Part shown: positions 49,474 through 62,614 of the stretch, piece by piece | Layout: each line of letters starts with the position of its first letter | Numbering within the stretch: position 1 is the first letter of the stretch | From: Rhodococcus sp. ABRD24 | GTDB taxonomy: Bacteria > Actinomycetota > Actinomycetes > Mycobacteriales > Mycobacteriaceae | NCBI RefSeq assembly: GCF_004328705.1 | Contig: NZ_CP035319.1 | Coordinates: forward strand, 496,001-560,000 | Direction: 5' to 3' | DNA: 64,000 nt | Position numbers and translations under genes: made by a program | Notes under the pieces: generated by a model | The model's input: the letters and a program-made list of their open reading frames with translations, nothing else | What the model was told of the DNA's origin: nothing | The model's database searches: none

Positions 49474-50910
49474 GTGGCTTTCACCACGGCCGAAGAGGTC
49501 ATCAAGTACATCGCCGACGAAAAAGTCGAGTATGTGGACATCCGTTTCAGCGACCTGCCTGGCGTCCAGCAGCACTTCTCGATCCCGGCCTCGGCGTTCA
49601 ACCAGGACGTGTTCGAAGACGGCCTCGCGTTCGACGGTTCCTCGGTGCGCGGCTTCCAGTCCATCCACGAGTCGGACATGATGCTGCTGCCCGATGTCGC
49701 GACAGCACGGATCGACCCGTTCCGGGCGGCCCGCACGCTGAACATCAACTTCTTCGTCCACGATCCGTTCACCCGCGAGGCCTACAGCCGCGACCCGCGT
49801 AACGTCGCCCGTAAGGCTGAGGAGTACCTGGTCAGCACCGGCATCGCCGACACCGCGTTCTTCGGGGCCGAGGCCGAGTTCTACATCTTCGACTCGGTCC
49901 GCTACGACTCCGGCATGAACGGTGCGTTCTACGAGCTGGACTCGATCTCGGGCGCGTGGAATACCGGCAACGAGGTCAACGCCGACGGCAGCCCGAACCT
50001 CGGATACAAGGTCCGCGCCAAGGGTGGCTACTTCCCCGTCGCGCCGTACGACCACTACGTCGACCTGCGCGACGAGATCTCCACCAACCTGACCAACGCG
50101 GGCCTCGAGCTCGAGCGCGGCCACCACGAGGTGGGTACCGGCGGCCAGCAGGAGATCAACTACAAGTTCAACACCCTGCTCGCCGCTGCCGATGACCTGC
50201 AGCTGTTCAAGTACATCGTCAAGAACACCTGCTGGCAGCACGGAAAGTCCGCTACTTTCATGCCGAAGCCGCTGTTCGGTGACAACGGCTCGGGCATGCA
50301 CGTGCACCAGTCCCTGTGGAAGGACGGCAAGCCGCTGTTCCACGACGAGGCCGGTTACGCGGGCCTGTCGGATATGGCACGTCACTACATCGGCGGCATC
50401 CTGCACCACGCGCCGTCGCTGCTGGCCTTCACCAACCCGACGATCAACTCGTACCACCGTCTGGTGCCGGGCTACGAGGCCCCCATCAACCTGGTGTACA
50501 GCCAGCGCAACCGCTCCGCGGCCGTGCGTATCCCGATCACCGGCAACAACCCGAAGGCCAAGCGCCTCGAGTTCCGCGCACCGGACTCCTCGGGCAACCC
50601 GTACCTGAACTTCGCGGCTCAGATGATGGCCGGCCTGGACGGCATCAAGAACAAGATCGAGCCGATGGCTCCGGTAGACAAGGATCTCTACGAGCTCCCG
50701 CCGGAGGAGGCCCGCAACATCCCGCAGGCCCCCACCAACCTCGAGACCGTCATCAACCGCCTCGAGGCGGACCACGACTACCTCACCGAGGGTGGAGTCT
50801 TCACCACCGACCTCATCGAGACCTGGATCTCGATCAAGCGGGAGCAGGAAATCGCTCCGGTCAACCTGCGGCCGCACCCCTACGAGTTCCAGCTGTACTA
50901 CGACGTGTAA
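49474..50910 (+). CDS. glnA: Glutamine synthetase type I (GlnA1)
   Basis: 478-residue GSI-beta enzyme, the main ammonia-assimilating synthetase (Rv2220). Motifs: [58 protein letters not shown], and the adenylylation site Tyr in [14 protein letters not shown]. The adenylyltransferase gene glnE lies about 10 kb away in the same window. GTG 49474 has GGAG upstream, and a GlnR-type box precedes the promoter, so both transcriptional and covalent control are expected. Confidence 0.97.
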
Positions 50911-51926: not shown

Positions 51927-51945
51927 TTTTGTTATGCTCACCTAA
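51927..51945 (+). promoter_or_regulatory. IdeR/DtxR-like iron box before the ABC importer operon
   Basis: TTTTGTTATGCTCACCTAA agrees with the consensus TTAGGTTAGGCTAACCTAA at 15 of 19 positions by hand count. It lies 66-84 nt upstream of the chosen start of the substrate-binding protein. Iron-dependent repression of the operon is inferred. Confidence 0.65.
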
Positions 51946-52010
51946 CCACCCGGTCCGGGTGCATGCTGTCACGACTGAACAGCAACCGCGTCAAGTCTTC
52001 TCGGAGCCTC

Positions 52011-53168
52011 ATGTCGACCCCACCTCGTTCCCCGAACCCGACCGCCGCTCTCACCCGCCGAGACCTCATGCGCTCGATGGGCGTCGCAACGCTCGCCCTC
52101 GGGGCCCTGGGCATCTCTGCCTGCTCGAGCCGCGACACAGTCGCCGAGACCGCCGATATCGGCGACGTAGTCGGCCCGATCACGATCGTCGACCAGTACC
52201 GGAACACCGTCACGTTCGACACCCCGGTCGGCCGGATAGCGTCGGCCATCATCCCGGTGCCGTCGATGATCATCGGTTCGGACCAGTCCACCGCCCGCAA
52301 CGTCGGCGTCAACCAGGTCGCGATCTCGATGGCCTCGAAGGGCATGCTGGGCACGATGTTCCCGCAGTTCCTCGACACCCCGGTGGTGGCCGGCAACGAC
52401 TTCGTGCCAAACGTCGAGCACATCCTCAGCCTGAACCCGGACGTCGTGATCCAGTGGGGCGACAAGGGCGACGACATCGTCGCGCCGCTGCGCAACGCCG
52501 GCCTGAAGGTGATCCTGCTCAAGTACGGCACGCAGGAGGATCTCGAGGCCTGGATCCAGATCTTCGGTGAACTGCTGGGCAAGAAGGCCGAGGCCGACGC
52601 AGTGCTCGCGAAGATGGCCGACGACCGCGCGCTGGTCGAGAAGACCGCCGCGGCGCACGCGTCGACCGCCCCGAAGGTGCTGTACCTGTACAACGCGCCG
52701 GAGATCAAGGTCGGCGCCGACAACAGTTACATGGACTTCTGGATCAAGCTCGCCGGCGGCAACAACGTCGCGTCCGGCGCGGGTAGCGGCTCGAGCCTCG
52801 GCGTCACCCGAGAGCAGGTGCTCGGCTGGGACCCGGAGGTGTTGATCCTCGGCAACTTCGAGCCGACGACCCCCGCCGACGTCTATGCCGACCCCAAGTG
52901 GGCGTCGCTGTCCGCGGCGAAGAACAAGCGGGTCTACAAGGCCCCGATCGGCGGCTTCTCGTGGGACCCGCCGTGCAACGAGTCGAACCTGATGTGGCTG
53001 TGGGTGAACTCGGTGTTCTTCCCGGACGTGAACCACGAACTGCGCCAGCGCATCCGAGCGACGTACCGCATGCTGTACGCGTACGACGTCACCGATGCGG
53101 ACGTCGACCGCATTCTCCAGATGCCAGCCAACTCGGGCAGCGCGGGCTATGACGCCTTCCGTGCTTGA
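52011..53168 (+). CDS. Iron-siderophore-type ABC transporter substrate-binding lipoprotein
   Basis: 385 residues with a Tat-type signal (TRRDLMRSMGVATLALGALG) ending in a lipobox with Cys38 (GISAC). The mature part is a helical-backbone (FhuD/BtuF class) binding protein: ITIVDQYRNTVTFDTPVGRI, LNPDVVIQWGDKGDDIVAPL and PIGGFSWDPPCNESNLMWLW. Such proteins capture ferric siderophores, haem or cobalamin. ATG 52011 has GGAG; the frame opens at 51963. First gene of a five-gene overlapping operon. Confidence 0.92.
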   Translation: MSTPPRSPNPTAALTRRDLMRSMGVATLALGALGISACSSRDTVAETADIGDVVGPITIVDQYRNTVTFDTPVGRIASAIIPVPSMIIGSDQSTARNVGVNQVAISMASKGMLGTMFPQFLDTPVVAGNDFVPNVEHILSLNPDVVIQWGDKGDDIVAPLRNAGLKVILLKYGTQEDLEAWIQIFGELLGKKAEADAVLAKMADDRALVEKTAAAHASTAPKVLYLYNAPEIKVGADNSYMDFWIKLAGGNNVASGAGSGSSLGVTREQVLGWDPEVLILGNFEPTTPADVYADPKWASLSAAKNKRVYKAPIGGFSWDPPCNESNLMWLWVNSVFFPDVNHELRQRIRATYRMLYAYDVTDADVDRILQMPANSGSAGYDAFRA

Positions 53169-54210
53169 GACCGTAACCGAGCAGCGGACGCGGCGGTCGT
53201 CGCGCCTGCTCGTGCCGGTGGTCCTCACCGTCGGGATCGTCGCGGTCGGACTGATCTCGCTGTCGGTGGGCCGCTACACGGTCCCGGTCAACGAGGTGGC
53301 CCGCATCCTGATCAACGAGGTGATCTCACTCCCCCAGACGTGGACCGAGGCCGAATCCAACGTCGTTCTCGGCGTGCGGCTTCCACGGGTCCTGCTGGGG
53401 ATGCTCGTCGGCGGTGGCCTGGCGCTGGGCGGTGCCGCACTGCAGGCCACGTTCCGCAATCCGCTGGTGAGCCCGCAGATCCTGGGGGTGTCCTCGGGTG
53501 CGTCGTTCGGCGGTGTGCTGGCCCTGATGTTCGGGCTGGGCTCGACGTTCCTGGTCGGCGGCGCGTTCCTGTTCGGCCTCGCCGCGCTCGGCATGGTGCT
53601 GCTGATCGGCCGGAGCCGGTCGGGCGGCGCGCTCCTGATGATCGTGCTCGGCGGTGTCGTCACGAGTGCGTTCTTCTCGGCACTGGTGTCGTTCATCACC
53701 TACGTCGCCGACCCGTACACCACGCTCCCGTCGATCGTGTTCTGGCTCATGGGTTCCCTCGCCACCGCGGACATGGCGAAGGTGCTGATCGCGGCGATAC
53801 CCATCCTCGCGGGCTCCGCCGTCATCATCGGACTGCGCTGGCGGATCAACATCCTCTCGCTCGGCGACGACGACGCCGCCTCGCTGGGTGTCGACCCGGG
53901 TCGGCTGCGGGCCCTGCTGCTGACGATGGTGGCACTCATGACTGCCGGCGCGGTCGCCGTGTCGGGCGTCATCGGCTGGGTGGGCTTGGTGGTTCCGCAC
54001 ATCGCCCGGCTGTGGGTCGGACCCGATCACCGGATCTCGATGCCGACGACGTTCGTGCTCGGCGCCGCATATCTGACGATCATCGACACGCTCTCGCGCA
54101 CCGTCAGTTCCGGTGAGATCCCGCTCGGCATCCTCACCGCGATCATCGGTGCCCCGGTGTTCGTTCTGCTGCTCCGGAATTCGCGTAGACAGGCCTTCAT
54201 CGATGCTTGA
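53149..54210 (+). CDS. FecCD-family ABC permease
   Basis: 353 residues with about ten membrane helices; VVLGVRLPRVLLGMLVGGGL, QATFRNPLVSPQILGVSSGA and VSGVIGWVGLVVPHIARLWV are typical of FecCD/BtuC permeases that import siderophores, haem or B12. It forms a homodimer in such transporters when only one permease gene is present. ATG 53149 overlaps the binding-protein gene by 20 bp; GTG 53161 is an alternative with 8 bp overlap. Confidence 0.94.
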   Translation: MTPSVLETVTEQRTRRSSRLLVPVVLTVGIVAVGLISLSVGRYTVPVNEVARILINEVISLPQTWTEAESNVVLGVRLPRVLLGMLVGGGLALGGAALQATFRNPLVSPQILGVSSGASFGGVLALMFGLGSTFLVGGAFLFGLAALGMVLLIGRSRSGGALLMIVLGGVVTSAFFSALVSFITYVADPYTTLPSIVFWLMGSLATADMAKVLIAAIPILAGSAVIIGLRWRINILSLGDDDAASLGVDPGRLRALLLTMVALMTAGAVAVSGVIGWVGLVVPHIARLWVGPDHRISMPTTFVLGAAYLTIIDTLSRTVSSGEIPLGILTAIIGAPVFVLLLRNSRRQAFIDA

Positions 54211-54988
54211 GATTCAGGACGCCGGTTTCCACTACCCGCGCCGGGACTGGGTGTTCCGGCACGCGAACCTGCGGATCGAGGGCGGTATCACGTCGATCCT
54301 GGGACCCAACGGCCAGGGCAAGACGACGCTGCTCCGGTGTATCGCGGGGCTCACGCCGTTGCGCGAGGGGCGGGTGGAGCGGGACACCGCGATCGGCTAC
54401 GTCCCACAGGCCGCCCTGTCGAGCTTTGCGTACTCGGTGTTCGACATGGTCCTGATGGGCCGGGCGAAGAAGGTCTCGGCCTTCGCGGTGCCCGGTAGGG
54501 CCGACGTCGCCCGTACCCGCGAGGTCCTGGACCGGGTCGGCATCGGCGATCTCGCTCGGCGCAGCTTTGCCGAACTGTCCGGCGGCCAGAGGCAACTGGT
54601 GCTCATCGCGCGGGCGCTGGCGTCGGACGCCACGTTCATGATCCTCGACGAGCCGGTCTCGGCCCTGGACCTGCGCAACCAGGCGAGGGTGTTGGAACTG
54701 CTGCGCGACCTGGCAGCGGACGGCATGGGCATCCTGCTCACCACGCATCACCCCGATCACGCGCTACATCTGGGCGGGCGCGCGATCGTGATGCGTGCGC
54801 CGGAGGACATCCGGCTCGGCCCCGTCGCCGATCTCGTCACCGACGGAATGCTCACCGACCTATACGGCATCGAGGTGGTGAGTGCCACCGTCGACGACCG
54901 CGGCGCTCCTCGCACCCTGCTCTACACCCGTTACGACACACTCGCGGCCGCCGAACCCGCGGCCACCCTTCAGAAGGCTTCACGATGA
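54203..54988 (+). CDS. FecE/BtuD-type ABC transporter ATPase
   Basis: 261 residues. Walker A GPNGQGKTT at 34-42, Q-loop YVPQAALSS, ABC signature AELSGGQRQLVLIARALA, Walker B FMILDEPVSALD and switch His in LLTTHHPDHAL. It powers the FecCD permease. ATG 54203 overlaps the permease stop by 8 bp, and its own stop overlaps the next gene by 4 bp (ATGA). Confidence 0.95.
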   Translation: MLEIQDAGFHYPRRDWVFRHANLRIEGGITSILGPNGQGKTTLLRCIAGLTPLREGRVERDTAIGYVPQAALSSFAYSVFDMVLMGRAKKVSAFAVPGRADVARTREVLDRVGIGDLARRSFAELSGGQRQLVLIARALASDATFMILDEPVSALDLRNQARVLELLRDLAADGMGILLTTHHPDHALHLGGRAIVMRAPEDIRLGPVADLVTDGMLTDLYGIEVVSATVDDRGAPRTLLYTRYDTLAAAEPAATLQKASR

Positions 54989-55620
54989 CTCTCGACACGA
55001 CTGCACCGCAGTCACTTCCACCGGTCCTGCACCTGGTGATGGGTACCAACTCCGGCATGTCCGGCGGCACATCCACCGGCCGGTGCGTGCAGCCCGTCGA
55101 CCTGTACGACCTGGACACCCTGAACCTGGACGGCGTCCGCGGCCTGCTGATCAACGGCAACTGCGATCAGATCTTCCTCGAACGCCGACGCGACCTGCTC
55201 ACCGACTTCGTCACCGCCGGTGGGCGCATCGCGATCATGGGTCACCCGCTCAACGACTTCCTGCCGGGGTTGGGCCAGTGGCGCAAGCTGCAGTACTCGG
55301 GCCCCAAGGATCTGGCGATCACCGCCGGCGACCCCCACCCGGTGTGGGAGGGTGTCGATCCCGCCGACGTCAGTTTCCGGCGCGGGGTGTCCGGTTTCTA
55401 CGGCCGCGGCTACAGCCAGAAGCTGACCGACGGCGCCGTCGTGACCAACCGCATCGGACGGCACGCGCTGCCCGTCGACTACGTGTATCCGCTCGGTGCC
55501 GGCGAGGTGCTGGTGCACGGCGGCATCGATCTGGCCGTCTACCAGGAGGATCCGAACACCTCCGCCCGCATCTTCCCGCAGCTGCTCACGTGGCTGGCCC
55601 AGCAGGAGGCACAGGCATGA
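54985..55620 (+). CDS. Uncharacterised protein A of the iron-type ABC operon
   Basis: 211 residues, no signal peptide, not confidently recognised. Visible alpha/beta pattern: LHLVMGTNSGMSGGTSTGRC, VRGLLINGNCDQIFLERRRD, FVTAGGRIAIMGHPLNDFLP, HPVWEGVDPADVSFRR and a C-terminal GEVLVHGGIDLAVYQEDP ending in LLTWLAQQ. The layout recalls class I glutamine amidotransferase-like or ThuA-like folds, but no Cys nucleophile motif is evident. It is similar in outline to the next gene's product. Coupled by ATGA to the ATPase gene, so it probably works with the imported substrate. Confidence 0.85.
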   Translation: MTLDTTAPQSLPPVLHLVMGTNSGMSGGTSTGRCVQPVDLYDLDTLNLDGVRGLLINGNCDQIFLERRRDLLTDFVTAGGRIAIMGHPLNDFLPGLGQWRKLQYSGPKDLAITAGDPHPVWEGVDPADVSFRRGVSGFYGRGYSQKLTDGAVVTNRIGRHALPVDYVYPLGAGEVLVHGGIDLAVYQEDPNTSARIFPQLLTWLAQQEAQA

Positions 55621-56297
55621 CCACCGTCGAACCCTTCGCCCGCACCGACCGCGCACCCCGCTCCAGGCGCCGACTGGCTCTTGTTCACGGTGGATCGCAC
55701 TTCCACCTGCAGACGCTGAAGGACCCGGCGGTGATCGCACACCAGCCCGAGTTCCTGTACCTCGCGGACCTCGCCGACGGCGTCCTCGACGACTTCGACA
55801 CCGTGATCCTCGCCGACCGACTGCACCCCGAACTGCTTCGCCGGCACACCGCGCAGATCCTCGCGGTCGCCGAGCGCGGCGGGACCCTCGTCGTCCTCGG
55901 CGAGAACGCCGCGCACACCTGGCTGCCCGGTGTGACGTGGACCGCGCGGCCCACCAACTTCTGGTGGTGGCTCGAGGGCGAGGATCCACTGATCCGCACC
56001 CGCAGCCCCGAACACGAGGCGTGGGAATACCTTTCGACGAAGTCGGTGATCTGGCACCACCACGGGCTGCTGCACACCGACGCCGACGTCGTGCCGCTGC
56101 TGGTGTCGGAGGAGCCCGACGAGAACGGCGACCTGCGCGACGCCGGGATGATGCTGTTCGAGGACACCGTCTCCACGCCGGGCCGGATCATCGCCACCAC
56201 GCTGGACCCGACCTACCACCACGGCAACAACTTCATGCCGGGGTCGACGCGCTTCCTCTACGCACTGCTGCGTTGGCTGGACAACACCGGCAACTAG
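55617..56297 (+). CDS. Uncharacterised protein B of the iron-type ABC operon
   Basis: 226 residues, cytoplasmic by prediction. It starts RLALVHGGSHFHLQTLKDP, has DDFDTVILADRLHPELLRRH, AVAERGGTLVVLGENAAHTW, NFWWWLEGEDP, a His cluster VIWHHHGLLHTDADV and GRIIATTLDPTYHHGNNFMP, ending LLRWLDN. Segment order parallels protein A (loop, AGGRIAIMGHP / RGGTLVVLGEN, H-x-W-E, terminal ll-WL), so the pair look like diverged paralogues. The His-rich segments could bind metal. The ATG overlaps the previous stop by 4 bp. Confidence 0.85.
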   Translation: MTTVEPFARTDRAPRSRRRLALVHGGSHFHLQTLKDPAVIAHQPEFLYLADLADGVLDDFDTVILADRLHPELLRRHTAQILAVAERGGTLVVLGENAAHTWLPGVTWTARPTNFWWWLEGEDPLIRTRSPEHEAWEYLSTKSVIWHHHGLLHTDADVVPLLVSEEPDENGDLRDAGMMLFEDTVSTPGRIIATTLDPTYHHGNNFMPGSTRFLYALLRWLDNTGN

Positions 56298-57634: not shown

Positions 57635-58936
57635 ATGAATCCGGGGGGACTCAAGAACTCGAGCATCGCAGCCACTGCGCTGCAGCCCGACGACGTGCGC
57701 CGACTCCCCGAAATCTCACTCCTGCAGGGGACGGTCGACGTCTCTCGCGAGATCGAACGCCTCGAAGCGTTGCGGGTTGCGATGGTCGCCGAGGTCCACG
57801 AGCGTGCCGTCTCGTTCGACACCCTCGGATTCCGCAGCGTCAAACAGTGGCTCGCCGCCAACACGCTGCTGGAAGTGTCGACCGCGGGACGGATCCTCGC
57901 GTTGGGGCGGATGCTCGGCCGGCAACCCGAGATCGCCGACGCCTTCAACGCGGGTGACATTTCCGCCGAGCATGCCGCGCTGATCGGAAAGTTCTGCGAA
58001 ACCCCGCCGCGCGGCATGCCGAACGAAGCACTGGATGCGTGCCGGAAAGTGCTGCTGGACAGCGCCACCGGACCCACCGCCACCACCACGACGGTCCGCA
58101 GCTGCATCAGCAAGCTCGAGCGGATCTTCGAATCCGACGAACTCCCGCCGAGCGAAGACACTGAGCGCAACGAGTTCCACGCCTCGAAAACACTGAACGG
58201 GCGCGTCGCGGTGAAGGGTGATCTCGATGCCGTGACCGGTGAGATGCTCCTGACCGCGCTGTCCGCACTGACGAAGCCACGCAACCCGGCCGACGACCCA
58301 GCCGGTGCCCGTACGCCGGCACGGCAGCGAGCCGATGCGTTCGCGGAAATCCTGCGCCGCTACCTCGACTCCGGCGACGCACCGATCGAAGGCGGAGAAC
58401 GACCCCACCTGTCCCTGCACGTGAATGCCTCCGATCTTGCCCGCAGTGAGGCAGACCACGAGAGCCTTGGGTCAGACGGTAATCCGGACCTGTTCGGCGA
58501 CAAAGACATCGCACGCATGCCCCACATGGGCCCACTCTCGATCGCGACTGCCCGCAGGTTGGCGTGCGACTGCCACCTCACCCCGATCGTCATGAGCGAC
58601 GGAGTGCCACTGAACCTGGGGAGAACAACCCGCACCGTGTCGAAGAAGCAGCGGCGCGCGTTGATCGCCCGTGATCACGGCTGTGCTTTCCCTGGCTGCG
58701 GAGCACCGCCCGCCCACTGCGAGGGCCACCACGTCATGCATTGGGCCGACGGCGGACCCACCGACCTCGACAACCTCGCCCTACTCTGCGGCTACCATCA
58801 CAGGCTGCTCCACCACTCCCACTGGGAGATGAAGATCGGCACCGACCGACACCCGTGGTTCACGCCGCCATCGACGGTAGATCCCTACAAGAAGCCCATC
58901 CCCGCCCACAACCGGGCAGGACCGCGAGCTGCATGA
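57635..58936 (+). CDS. DUF222 / HNH endonuclease protein (13E12-repeat family type)
   Basis: 433 residues. N-terminal DUF222 helices (TVDVSREIERLEALRVAMVA, LAANTLLEVSTAGRILALGR) are followed by a C-terminal HNH nuclease domain with CAFPGCGAPPAHCEGHHVMH and LDNLALLCGYHHRLLHHSHW, including the zinc cysteines and catalytic His. The family is multicopy in mycobacteria and rhodococci (M. tuberculosis 13E12 repeats, phage-associated). Target is unknown. It stands alone between small unknown genes and the glnE cluster, in the accessory insert. Confidence 0.93.
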   Translation: MNPGGLKNSSIAATALQPDDVRRLPEISLLQGTVDVSREIERLEALRVAMVAEVHERAVSFDTLGFRSVKQWLAANTLLEVSTAGRILALGRMLGRQPEIADAFNAGDISAEHAALIGKFCETPPRGMPNEALDACRKVLLDSATGPTATTTTVRSCISKLERIFESDELPPSEDTERNEFHASKTLNGRVAVKGDLDAVTGEMLLTALSALTKPRNPADDPAGARTPARQRADAFAEILRRYLDSGDAPIEGGERPHLSLHVNASDLARSEADHESLGSDGNPDLFGDKDIARMPHMGPLSIATARRLACDCHLTPIVMSDGVPLNLGRTTRTVSKKQRRALIARDHGCAFPGCGAPPAHCEGHHVMHWADGGPTDLDNLALLCGYHHRLLHHSHWEMKIGTDRHPWFTPPSTVDPYKKPIPAHNRAGPRAA

Positions 58937-59093: not shown

Positions 59094-59603
59094 TCAGTCG
59101 ACGTCGTAGACCTCGGTGGCCGGCACCGCCAGCAAACGGTCGGTCATCTCCTGCTTGAGTACAACCAGGCGTGCCTCGTCGGCCTCGGTGCGGCCGCTCG
59201 TGTTCACCAGTTCGATGAACTCGTCCGCCACGAAGCCCTCGCGCACTTGCACCGTCACGGTGTGGCCTCGGTAGCTGAGCCGGAAGACGTAGTTGGCGAG
59301 GGTGTTTCCTCGGTCCGGCCGTGCCAGCGCGGGATCCACCACGTAGCGGCCGCCGGTGACCGCGCGGGTCACCATCTCGAACGCGTCCCGCACGCCCGGT
59401 CCCCCGTGCGCCGTGGCGATCTTCATCTCCCGACGCTCCACCGGGCGACCGTCGTCGAGCAGCGGCAGCGCGCGCCCCAGCACCTGGAACGCGTGCGCGA
59501 CGCCGCCCGGCGCGTTGGGGCCGTGGTACTTCAACAGTTCGTCGAACGAGTAGACGAGCGGCGTCCCGCCCTCGACGACCGACAACGCGGTGTGCACCGT
59601 CAC
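59094..59603 (-). CDS. Conserved protein coupled to glnE, possibly FmdE-like
   Basis: 169 residues. [59 protein letters not shown] and [20 protein letters not shown] resemble, in order, the FmdE/FwdE fold, where a histidine loop precedes helix 1 and a GP/ACGVDA-type loop follows. The usual metal Cys is absent (HGPNAP for HGHxCP), so a catalytic or metal role is uncertain. GTG 59603 overlaps the glnE stop by 4 bp (GTGA), indicating co-translation with glnE. Confidence 0.7.
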
Positions 59604-62600
59604 TCGCCCCCGAACACCCGCTGCACCACGGCTTTCGCCCGCCGGGTGATCCGCAGGTAGTTGTCGAGGAACTCGTTCGCGTCCCCACCTGGCCATCCCG
59701 CCACCTGCGCGACCGCCGCAAGCACCTTGCCCGGGCCCGGCAGCTGGTCGGTGGGCTTACCGCGCACCAACACCAGCGCATTGCGGGCCTTCGTCGCGGT
59801 GAGCCACGCATCGCGTAGCAGTTCGATGTCGGTCTCGCTCAACAGCTCCGCAGCACCGATCGCGTCCAGAGTCTCGAGCGTCGACGTGTTGTGCAGCGCC
59901 GGAATCTCGTGTGCGTACCGCAGCTGGATCAGCTGTACGGTCCACTCGACGTCCGCGAGTCCGCCGCGACCGAGCTTGGTGTGGGTGGCGGGGTCCGCTC
60001 CCCGCGGCAATCGCTCGGAGTCCACGCGAGCCTTGATCCGCCGAATCTCGCGGACCGCCTGCTCCGATACGCCGCCCTCGGGGTAGCGCGTCGAATCGAT
60101 CATGTGCAGGAACCGTAGTCCCAGATCCGCGTCACCTGCCACCGCATGAGCCCGCAGCAGCGCCTGCACCTCCCACGACTGCGCCCACTGCGCGTAGTAC
60201 GCCTGGTACGACGCGAGCGTCCGCACCAACGGGCCGCTTCGCCCCTCGGGCCGCAGCCCGATATCGACCTCGAGCGGCGGATCCATGCTGGGCGCACCCA
60301 GCAGAGACCGCACCTTGTCCCCGATACTGTTGGCCCACTTGACTGCTCGGGTCTCGTCAACGCCCTCTCTGGGTTCACACACGAACAGCACGTCTGCGTC
60401 GGAGCCGTACCCGAGTTCACCGCCGCCGAGTCGGCCCATGCCGATCACTGCGAACTCCGCGGGCGCGGGCTCACCCGTCTCCGCCTCACTCGCCCGGATG
60501 ACCGCGGCCAATGCGGCGTTGAGCACTGCGGCCCACACCGACGACAATGCGCGGCACACCTGCGGAACATCGAGCATCCCGAGGATGTCCGCGCTCGCGA
60601 TACGGGCCAGCTCGTAGCGGCGCAGCGAACGCGCCGCTCCGACCGCCCGCACCGGATCCATGTGCCGCGCCGACGACGACAGGATTCCGCGGGCTACGTC
60701 CTCGGGCTGAGGCTCGAGCAGGCGCGGCCCGGACGGGCCGTCAGCGAACAGCCGGATCACATCCGGCGCTTTGATCAGCAGGTCCGGAATGTAAGCCGAC
60801 GACCCGAGCACCGTCATGAGTCGCTGCGCCACCGACGCCTCGTCGCGGAGGAGACGCAGGAACCACGTAGCGTCGGTGAGGGCCTCCGACAGCCGCCGAT
60901 AGGCGAGCAGACCCGCGTCGGGATCCGGTGTGTCGCCGAGCCATTCGAGCAGCGTCGGCAGCAGCAGCGCCTGGATTCGCCCCTTCCGCGATGCCCCACC
61001 GGTGAGCGCTACCAGATGGCCGAGCGCGTTCTCCGGTGCGGTGTAGCCGAGAGCGGCGAGCTGGCGAACGGCGGCATCGGGGCTCAGCCGCAGCGCCTCC
61101 TTGTCGATGCGCGCCACCGACTCGAGCAGCGGGCGATAGAACAGCTTGGCGTGCAGACGCCGGACCCGGTGCGAATTGCGCTTGATCTCGGCATTGAGCA
61201 CCCCGAGCGCATCGTTGCGTCCGTCCGGGCGCATGTGGGCAGCGCGAGCGAGCCAGCGTAGCGCCTCCTCGTCCTCGGGCGGCGGCAGCGTGTGCGTGCG
61301 CTTGAGCTTCTGCAACTGCAACCGGTGCTCGAGCAGACGCAGGAACTCGTACGACGCAGTCAGATTCGCCGCGTCATCGCGTCCGACGTACCCCTCGGCC
61401 GCCAATGCGGCAAGGGCATCGACAGTGCTCTTGACCCGTAGCGACAGGTCGACGCGGCCGTGTACCAGCTGCAGCAGCTGCACCGCGAACTCGACATCAC
61501 GCAGGCTGCCGCGGCCGAGCTTGAGTTCGCGCTCCCGCAGCTCCGGCGGCACCGATTCTTCGACCCGTCGACGCATGGCCTGCACTTCGGTAACGAAGTC
61601 CTCGCGCTCGGATGCCGTCCACACCATCGGACCCAGAGCATCGGTGTACTGCCGCCCCAGCTCGAGATCGCCGGTCATCGGCCGAGCCTTGAGCAGCGCC
61701 TGGAACTCCCATGTCTTCGCCCAGCGCTTGTAGTACGCCACGTGCGAATCGAGCGTGCGGACCAGTTCGCCGCGCTTGCCTTCGGGCCGCAGTGCGGCGT
61801 CCACCTCGAAGAATGCGGACGACCCGATTCGCATCATTTCGCCGGCGATCCGGCTCGCGACCGCGTCCGACGGTTCCGCGACGAAAACGACATCCACGTC
61901 ACTGACGTAGTTCAGTTCGCGCGCGCCGCACTTGCCCATCGCGATGACCGCGATCCGCGTCGGACACGGCTCGTCCGGGCACACCGTCGCAACACCTACC
62001 GCCAGCGCGGCAGTCAACGCCGCGTCAGCCATGTCCGAGAGCTGCTGTCCCACAATCTCGTACGGCACCACCGGTTCGTTCTCGACAGTGGCAGCCAAGT
62101 CGGCCGCAGCGAGGATCATCATCTGATCCCGGTAGCACTTCCTCAGCGCCGCAACGGCTTCCGGACCAGTGAGCGCGGCCCGATACAGCATGGACGACGC
62201 ATGGGGGCCGGTCTCAGGGGTGGCACCGACACTCGCGAGCAACCGCCGGGTCAGCTCCTCACGCGTCGGCAGCTGAACGTCGCCGGCGAGCAGCTTCCAC
62301 GACGCCGGATCGGCGACGAGGTGGTCACCGAACGCGCTCGAGGCACCGAGCAGGCCGAACAGTCGGCCGCGCAGCCCCTTGTCTGTCCGCAGGGCAGCGT
62401 CGAGCACGGCCCAGGAACCCTCGAGCCCATCTCGTAGCCGCACCAGAGTTCGCAACGCCAGATCGGCGTTGGCCGCGCGCGACAGCGCCCACAGCAGTTC
62501 GATGCCGTCGACGTTCGACCAGCCGAGCGCCTCGAGCTCCGCCGGCGCGGTCGGCTCGACCAATCCCAACCGGCCTGCACCGGGCACCGTGGACCGATTG

Positions 62601-62614
62601 GGTGGCGGCTTCAA
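59600..62614 (-). CDS. glnE: Bifunctional glutamine synthetase adenylyltransferase / adenylyl-removing enzyme
   Basis: 1004 residues, cytoplasmic. Two nucleotidyltransferase domains occur in tandem. The first has [16 protein letters not shown] and [20 protein letters not shown]. The second has [20 protein letters not shown] and [20 protein letters not shown]. Each is followed by a helical domain with [20 protein letters not shown] or [20 protein letters not shown]. It adds or removes AMP on the GlnA Tyr visible in glnA1. ATG 62614. Lies downstream of glnA2 on the same strand, as in M. tuberculosis (Rv2221c). Confidence 0.97.

Follow-up and report, generated by a model that had tools for sequence, protein, structure and literature searches.

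A 64,000-nucleotide stretch of Rhodococcus sp. ABRD24 (contig NZ_CP035319.1, positions 496,001 to 560,000 of the forward strand; hereafter the window), from a 5.10-Mb genome in a single contig, carries an operon in which the three genes of an ATP-binding cassette (ABC) importer of a known kind are followed by two genes, G4 and G5, that match no recognized family. The new part is a portable cytoplasmic trio: the G4-G5 pair is kept as the importer beside it changes type, and it is often accompanied by a third protein, G6, a remote relative of FmdE. The initial annotation of this DNA had overlooked both G6 and the exchange of importers around a conserved pair. We propose, in a reading that we regard as about evenly poised, that the trio acts in the cytoplasm on an imported iron complex, to release, cleave, or pass it on. 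The elements concerned are as follows; SBP denotes the substrate-binding protein.

51927..51945, no strand assigned: predicted IdeR/DtxR-like operator, matching the consensus at 15/19 positions, sequence TTTTGTTATGCTCACCTAA
51963..53168, + strand: SBP, a Peripla_BP_2 binding protein with a Tat-like (twin-arginine translocation) and lipobox-like N-terminus (Pfam Peripla_BP_2, E=8.5e-25)
53149..54210, + strand: FecCD permease (Pfam FecCD, E=3.2e-85), 20-bp overlap with the SBP gene
54203..54988, + strand: ABC importer ATPase (Pfam ABC_tran, E=1.4e-23), 8-bp overlap with the permease gene
54985..55620, + strand: G4, 211 residues, a remote relative of G5, no family above cut-off, 4-bp overlap with the ATPase gene
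55617..56297, + strand: G5, 226 residues, no Cys, WHxHG and DPxxHHG motifs, no family above cut-off, 4-bp overlap with G4
59094..59603, - strand: G6, 169 residues, a remote FmdE relative located by neighbor clustering, with a GTG start that overlaps the glnE stop

Direct reading of the open reading frames (ORFs) places the first five genes on one strand with successive overlaps of 20, 8, 4, and 4 bp, and the SBP, permease, and ATPase all score above their Pfam cut-offs. The initial annotation had described a binding protein, a FecCD permease, an ATPase, and two unassigned proteins joined by overlaps of 4–20 bp, and both the ORFs and the Pfam searches bear this out; the Tat/lipoprotein character that it gave to the SBP agrees with the N-terminus (TRRDLMR...GISAC), which appears Tat-like and lipobox-like on inspection only. 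Translation of the SBP may in fact begin at the ATG at position 52011. The nearest solved relative of the SBP is 4ovk (E=9.9e-51), from which its ligand cannot be read because that entry is named only as a periplasmic binding protein, and the NCBIfam matches to IsdE and similar families are far below cut-off. Rhequichelin uptake is assigned to iupABC, a different locus, in an excerpt of PMC2947987. A species-level genome scan gave Prescottella / Rhodococcus hoagii as the closest named relatives carrying the operon genes.

Of the searches with the two unassigned proteins, that with G4 yielded 59 proteins and that with G5 yielded 185. From 331 G5 relatives (one genome per GTDB species) the best 80 loci were fetched, with genes picked by a GC-bias heuristic; because only the best 80 of 331 were kept, the locus counts given here lean toward close relatives. 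G4 lies beside G5 in 80/80 of these loci, and the two are fused in one ORF in eight (seven in Arthrobacter, and one in Rhodococcus ARC_M6 as a second copy), as they also are in several plasmid records. A FecCD gene is directly upstream on the same strand in 56/80 loci, elsewhere in the stretch in five, and absent from 19. This neighborhood survey upholds the view that an unusual pair is coupled to the importer, and the coupling is kept across several phyla and importer types. The G4-G5-G6 trio is not named in any of the open-access listings searched. In Rhodococcus ARC_M6 (L020:8746-14235), an Opp-type set with the fused G4-G5, two G6 genes, and a further G4 stands beside a FecCD operon.

Importer types were assigned with Pfam for L020, L022, L055, and L089 and from BLAST clusters and ABC hits for the other loci. 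The 19 loci lacking FecCD include nine with Opp/Nik-type importers (eight in Rhodococcus, one in Tomitella) built from SBP_bac_5, BPD_transp_1, and an OppC-OppD fusion (Pfam for L022, clustering for the rest), and the importer of a Thalassospira locus is likewise of Opp/Nik type. In six alphaproteobacterial loci, the importer is of SsuA/NMT1 type and has G4-G5 at its end; one of these loci (L055) was assigned with Pfam and NCBIfam, where SsuA_fam scores above cut-off, and the others by clustering. On a 92-row G5 tree, from which L041 was excluded for its broken frame, the importer labels require ten changes against a minimum of four; they remain clustered, shuffled labels requiring 20.4 changes on average. 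TonB receptors adjoin the genes in proteobacteria.

Plasmids extend this range. G5 matched 31 plasmid records (tblastn), and ABC importer genes are present in all 17 stretches fetched from them: 13 of FecCD type, two of Opp type (a Paenibacillus plasmid being so classed by ABC hits only), one of SsuA type, and one haloarchaeal, whose permease is annotated as an iron permease. In plasmids of Methylocystis and Methylosinus, the genes form a single series SBP-FecCD-ABC-G4-G5-G6, and TonB receptors together with HemP, PepSY, or FecR genes lie on its flanks.

One further candidate was set aside: the SsuA/NMT1-type transporter at the Magnetospirillum locus L086 was not counted as a partner of the pair, since the neighboring ORFs look like NnrS on inspection. 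Annotated NnrS genes in Martelella share a block like that of this locus.

The predicted operator lies near the promoter, is rarer than chance, and is conserved in relatives. Scored against what we take to be the palindromic IdeR/DtxR consensus, the site at 51927 is the sole match of at least 13/19 in the window, as compared with chance expectations per 64 kb of 0.68 sites of at least 13 and 0.033 of at least 14 in a first-order Markov simulation, whose 60 windows gave none of at least 15. The 15/19 match of the initial annotation thus holds, and the site recurs: ahead of the SBP gene, a site of at least 14/19 is found in 42/57 loci tested and one of at least 13/19 in 45/57. Across the 1,261,730 bases of the 80 loci there are 67 IdeR-like sites of at least 14, as compared with three in a single mononucleotide shuffle of the same 1.26 Mb. 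All nine Opp-type loci of Rhodococcus and Tomitella have a site of at least 14/19 ahead of the Opp operon, 25–66 bp from the SBP ORF in those measured (L022, L023, L025, and L027), and five of the nine have a second IdeR-like site before G4. Importer exchange with IdeR-like sites kept at Opp-type loci gives the strongest case for an involvement of iron; the G4-G5 pair seems to follow a cargo, most likely an iron complex, rather than any single transporter. In genome G034, two 16/19 IdeR-like sites (L109:8990-9094) occupy the space that separates a G4 gene from a divergent 575-residue ORF, which is itself upstream of ABC genes.

As to the proteins themselves, the window G4 has no Pfam match up to E=1, the window G5 has only a sub-threshold match to Ribosomal_L27 (E=0.28), and neither has an NCBIfam match above cut-off. 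Sequence and profile searches of the PDB with G4, G5, and G6 returned nothing credible, and none of the three matched PHROGs. The description of G4 and G5 as proteins without a family is therefore sustained, and neither these searches nor the DUF4350 scans placed the two in a family belonging to a different pathway. A profile comparison (hhalign, P=91.6%, E=8.3e-7) indicates that G4 and G5 are remote relatives of each other. AlphaFold2 models have mean predicted local distance difference test scores of 86 (G4) and 91 (G5), and no 19-residue Kyte-Doolittle window exceeds 1.6 in G4, G5, or G6, which makes a cytoplasmic location reasonable for all three.

DUF4350, DUF4159, and ThuA-like proteins have a glutaminase-like fold, and some G4/G5 homologues are named “ThuA-like domain” or “Glutamine amidotransferase domain” in databases. 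A member-by-member Pfam scan (E≤1) gave sub-threshold DUF4350 matches for 10/34 G5 proteins (best E=0.0018) and 2/28 G4 proteins (best E=0.032); the family cut-off was not reached by G4 or G5, and the window proteins had no DUF4350 match. The likeness to these families thus comprises sub-threshold matches and some shared names; in contrast to them, G4 and G5 stay below cut-off, have no conserved Cys, and occur in another gene context. The catalytic Cys conserved in class I glutamine amidotransferases has no counterpart, G5 being Cys-free and the best G4 Cys column being occupied in 13/28 sequences; therefore G4 and G5 are not glutaminases. No link of ThuA-like proteins with siderophores and iron was found in the open-access literature. 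Four His residues of the WHxHG and DPxxHHG motifs are kept in the G5 family (in 34, 34, 33, and 33 of 34 sequences), and many polar residues are invariant in the G4 and G5 alignments.

Clustering of locus neighbors brought to light the third partner, a recurring protein of ∼168 residues, which is encoded after G5 in Nocardia, Tsukamurella, and some Gordonia but ahead of G4 in Bradyrhizobium, Bosea, and Rhodoplanes. Within the genus, G5 is present in 7/14 genomes and G6 in 6/14, all six with G5 (P=0.0023); in a 200-genome sample of the order, four genomes carry G5 and seven carry G6, including those four (P=5.4e-7), both hypergeometric P values ignoring the relatedness of the genomes. A sample of 296 genomes of the phylum has G5 in three and G6 in eight (two weak), with two shared. 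Co-occurrence is partial and G6 is also found alone, so G6 often, not always, accompanies the pair. A profile search returned 2,634 G6-like proteins among 8,000 scored candidates; such genes lie apart from G5 in other Actinomycetota (L101, L104, L132, and L136), which suggests a wider role for G6. Neighbors of solitary G6 genes were scanned at three loci with Pfam matches and at one more with an ABC gene, and had no common theme. In the genus member G013 (L148), G6 is in pieces and the ATPase match is partial, as in a decaying system or a faulty assembly.

Profile evidence identifies G6 as a remote homologue of FmdE (PF02663) by common ancestry. The G6 profile reaches true FmdE at E=4.4e-4, and an hhalign comparison, which aligns G6 with true FmdE over nearly its full length, gives P=87.4% (E=3.7e-6) as compared with 0.2% for two unrelated control pairs. 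The window G6 does not match PF02663 up to E=5, and the family appears below cut-off in 6/19 G6 relatives (best E=0.0026). Unlike true FmdE, G6 lacks the zinc-finger domain and stays below the Pfam cut-off, and of the FHGHxC zinc site only the first His-Gly persists, YHGPxxPGG being found instead, with no Cys in the window protein. According to section 3.7 of PMC2954224, most FmdE-family genes neighbor metal-ion transporter genes, a context similar to that of G6. No link of FmdE with siderophores and ABC transporters was found in the open-access literature.

From the coupling, the initial annotation had suggested a role of the pair in processing, release, or insertion of the imported compound. 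We propose that an IdeR-controlled ABC importer (SBP, FecCD, and ATPase) would take up an organic iron complex. In the cytoplasm, G4 and G5 may bind each other as a two-part unit that holds the complex and opens it, either by cleaving the ligand or by removing its iron. The paired His residues conserved in G5 could form a metal or catalytic site, and G6 might serve the same step as a helper, carrying metal or ligand. Several observations weigh against this account. Two of the 80 loci (L052 and L057) have no importer at all. No site of at least 13/19 is present in the tested stretch of 12/57 loci, including five of the six proteobacterial ones; one of the 12 (L018) has a 14/19 site just beyond that stretch. 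G6 is within the fetched stretch in just 37/80 loci; it is missing from G003, an intact-looking genus member with G5, and from G258, one of the three G5 genomes of the phylum sample, and three of the seven G6 genomes of the order sample lack G5. In the window itself, G6 is located behind glnE, and the site scan gave it no iron-type box of its own. Finally, on three plasmids (L159, L161, and L164; from Labrenzia, Agrobacterium vitis, and Martelella NC18) a fused G4-G5, a FecCD importer, and G6 stand ahead of the carbon-phosphorus (C-P) lyase genes phnG and phnH, with phnI and phnJ also present in the last two, so that a phosphonate or a phosphonate-bearing chelate is a possible cargo there.

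These C-P lyase neighbors also favor a cargo free of iron, such as a phosphonate, a nickel/cobalt complex, or a cofactor precursor wanted under iron limitation, with G4, G5, and G6 as breakdown or salvage enzymes, as does the fact that the NikA/Opp and SsuA importer classes are known for other cargo. However, IdeR-like sites recur at actinobacterial FecCD and Opp loci, the methanotroph operons are flanked by TonB receptors with HemP, PepSY, and FecR genes, and C-P lyase genes are present in only 3/17 plasmid stretches; we consider an iron-free cargo unlikely. It is similarly improbable that G4-G5 and G6 perform no chemistry and act as a chaperone or sensor, passing on the metal or ligand or reporting its import. 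The FmdE ancestry of a G6 without the zinc cysteine, the Cys-free G5 without a recognized enzyme family, and the chaperone role proposed for one FmdE-family member, as cited in section 3.7 of PMC2954224, are consistent with such a function, but the invariant polar residues of G4 and G5 resemble, in our judgment, an active site more than a scaffold. Heme as the cargo, to be degraded or handled by the trio, is very unlikely. In its favor, heme/hemoglobin families are the best matches (below cut-off) for six of the seven TonB receptors tested, an SsuA-type copy in Chelatococcus CO-6 is adjacent to a heme locus, the SBP has a sub-cut-off match to IsdE, and heme is a cargo of a Dpp-type importer in M. 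tuberculosis (an excerpt of PMC6751184). Against it, the same receptors also match siderophore receptor families, and since heme oxygenase (PF01126) is present in 14/14 genus genomes, with or without G5, there is no gap in heme degradation to fill and heme degradation is not favored as the job of the trio.

With FecCD-type importers under IdeR/DtxR-like control the operon shares the three importer genes, their order and families, and the IdeR-like site; it differs in two extra coupled genes of no known family and a third 2.8 kb away. Fes-type esterases and siderophore-interacting reductases free iron in the cytoplasm, presumably the same post-import step that G4-G5 would perform, but the Pfam and NCBIfam searches matched neither family to G4 or G5. 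To our knowledge, only a few enzyme families are known to free iron from chelates after import. A conserved trio able to move from one importer to another, unrelated one would add a further solution; through gene context, it would also help to predict what many unassigned importers carry, and for FmdE-like proteins it would open a role outside methanogenesis that can be tested. More broadly, and only tentatively, G4-G5-G6 might be a new and widespread cytoplasmic machine for opening imported metal complexes, formed by two Cys-poor proteins with His motifs and an FmdE-like helper. It would be exchanged among several kinds of importer (FecCD, Opp/Nik, SsuA, and perhaps ferric-type) in Actinomycetota, Chloroflexota, Pseudomonadota, a Paenibacillus, and a haloarchaeon, and in some lineages would be joined to C-P lyase so as to consume a phosphonate-type ligand.

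The chromosomal interval that holds the operon is bordered by two genes named after the initial annotation and by inspection.

49474..50910, + strand: glnA1, left border of the accessory interval
59600..62614, - strand: glnE, right border, with G6 next to it on the same strand

The operon had been placed in an accessory insert that splits glnA1 from glnE. Its accessory nature is supported by a comparison covering five other carriers and six non-carriers, with two further genus members left out: the interval holds the importer, G4, and G5 in 5/5 carriers (11.4–17.3 kb, as compared with 8.7 kb in the window), and all six genes are absent between glnA1 and glnE in 6/6 non-carriers. The splitting is not, in that glnA1 and glnE are 2.3–5.6 kb apart even without the insert and are not in direct contact. 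The space of 2.8 kb between the end of the operon and G6 includes a 433-residue ORF with an HNH-like C-terminus on inspection (57635-58936), present at that place only in G012 among the 11 genus loci compared. In Rhodoplanes tepidamans (L084:14366-16532), the TonB receptor of the locus is followed by a NifH/FrxC-family gene (Pfam E=2.5e-88) and then by an ORF that resembles a nitrogenase-type component on inspection.

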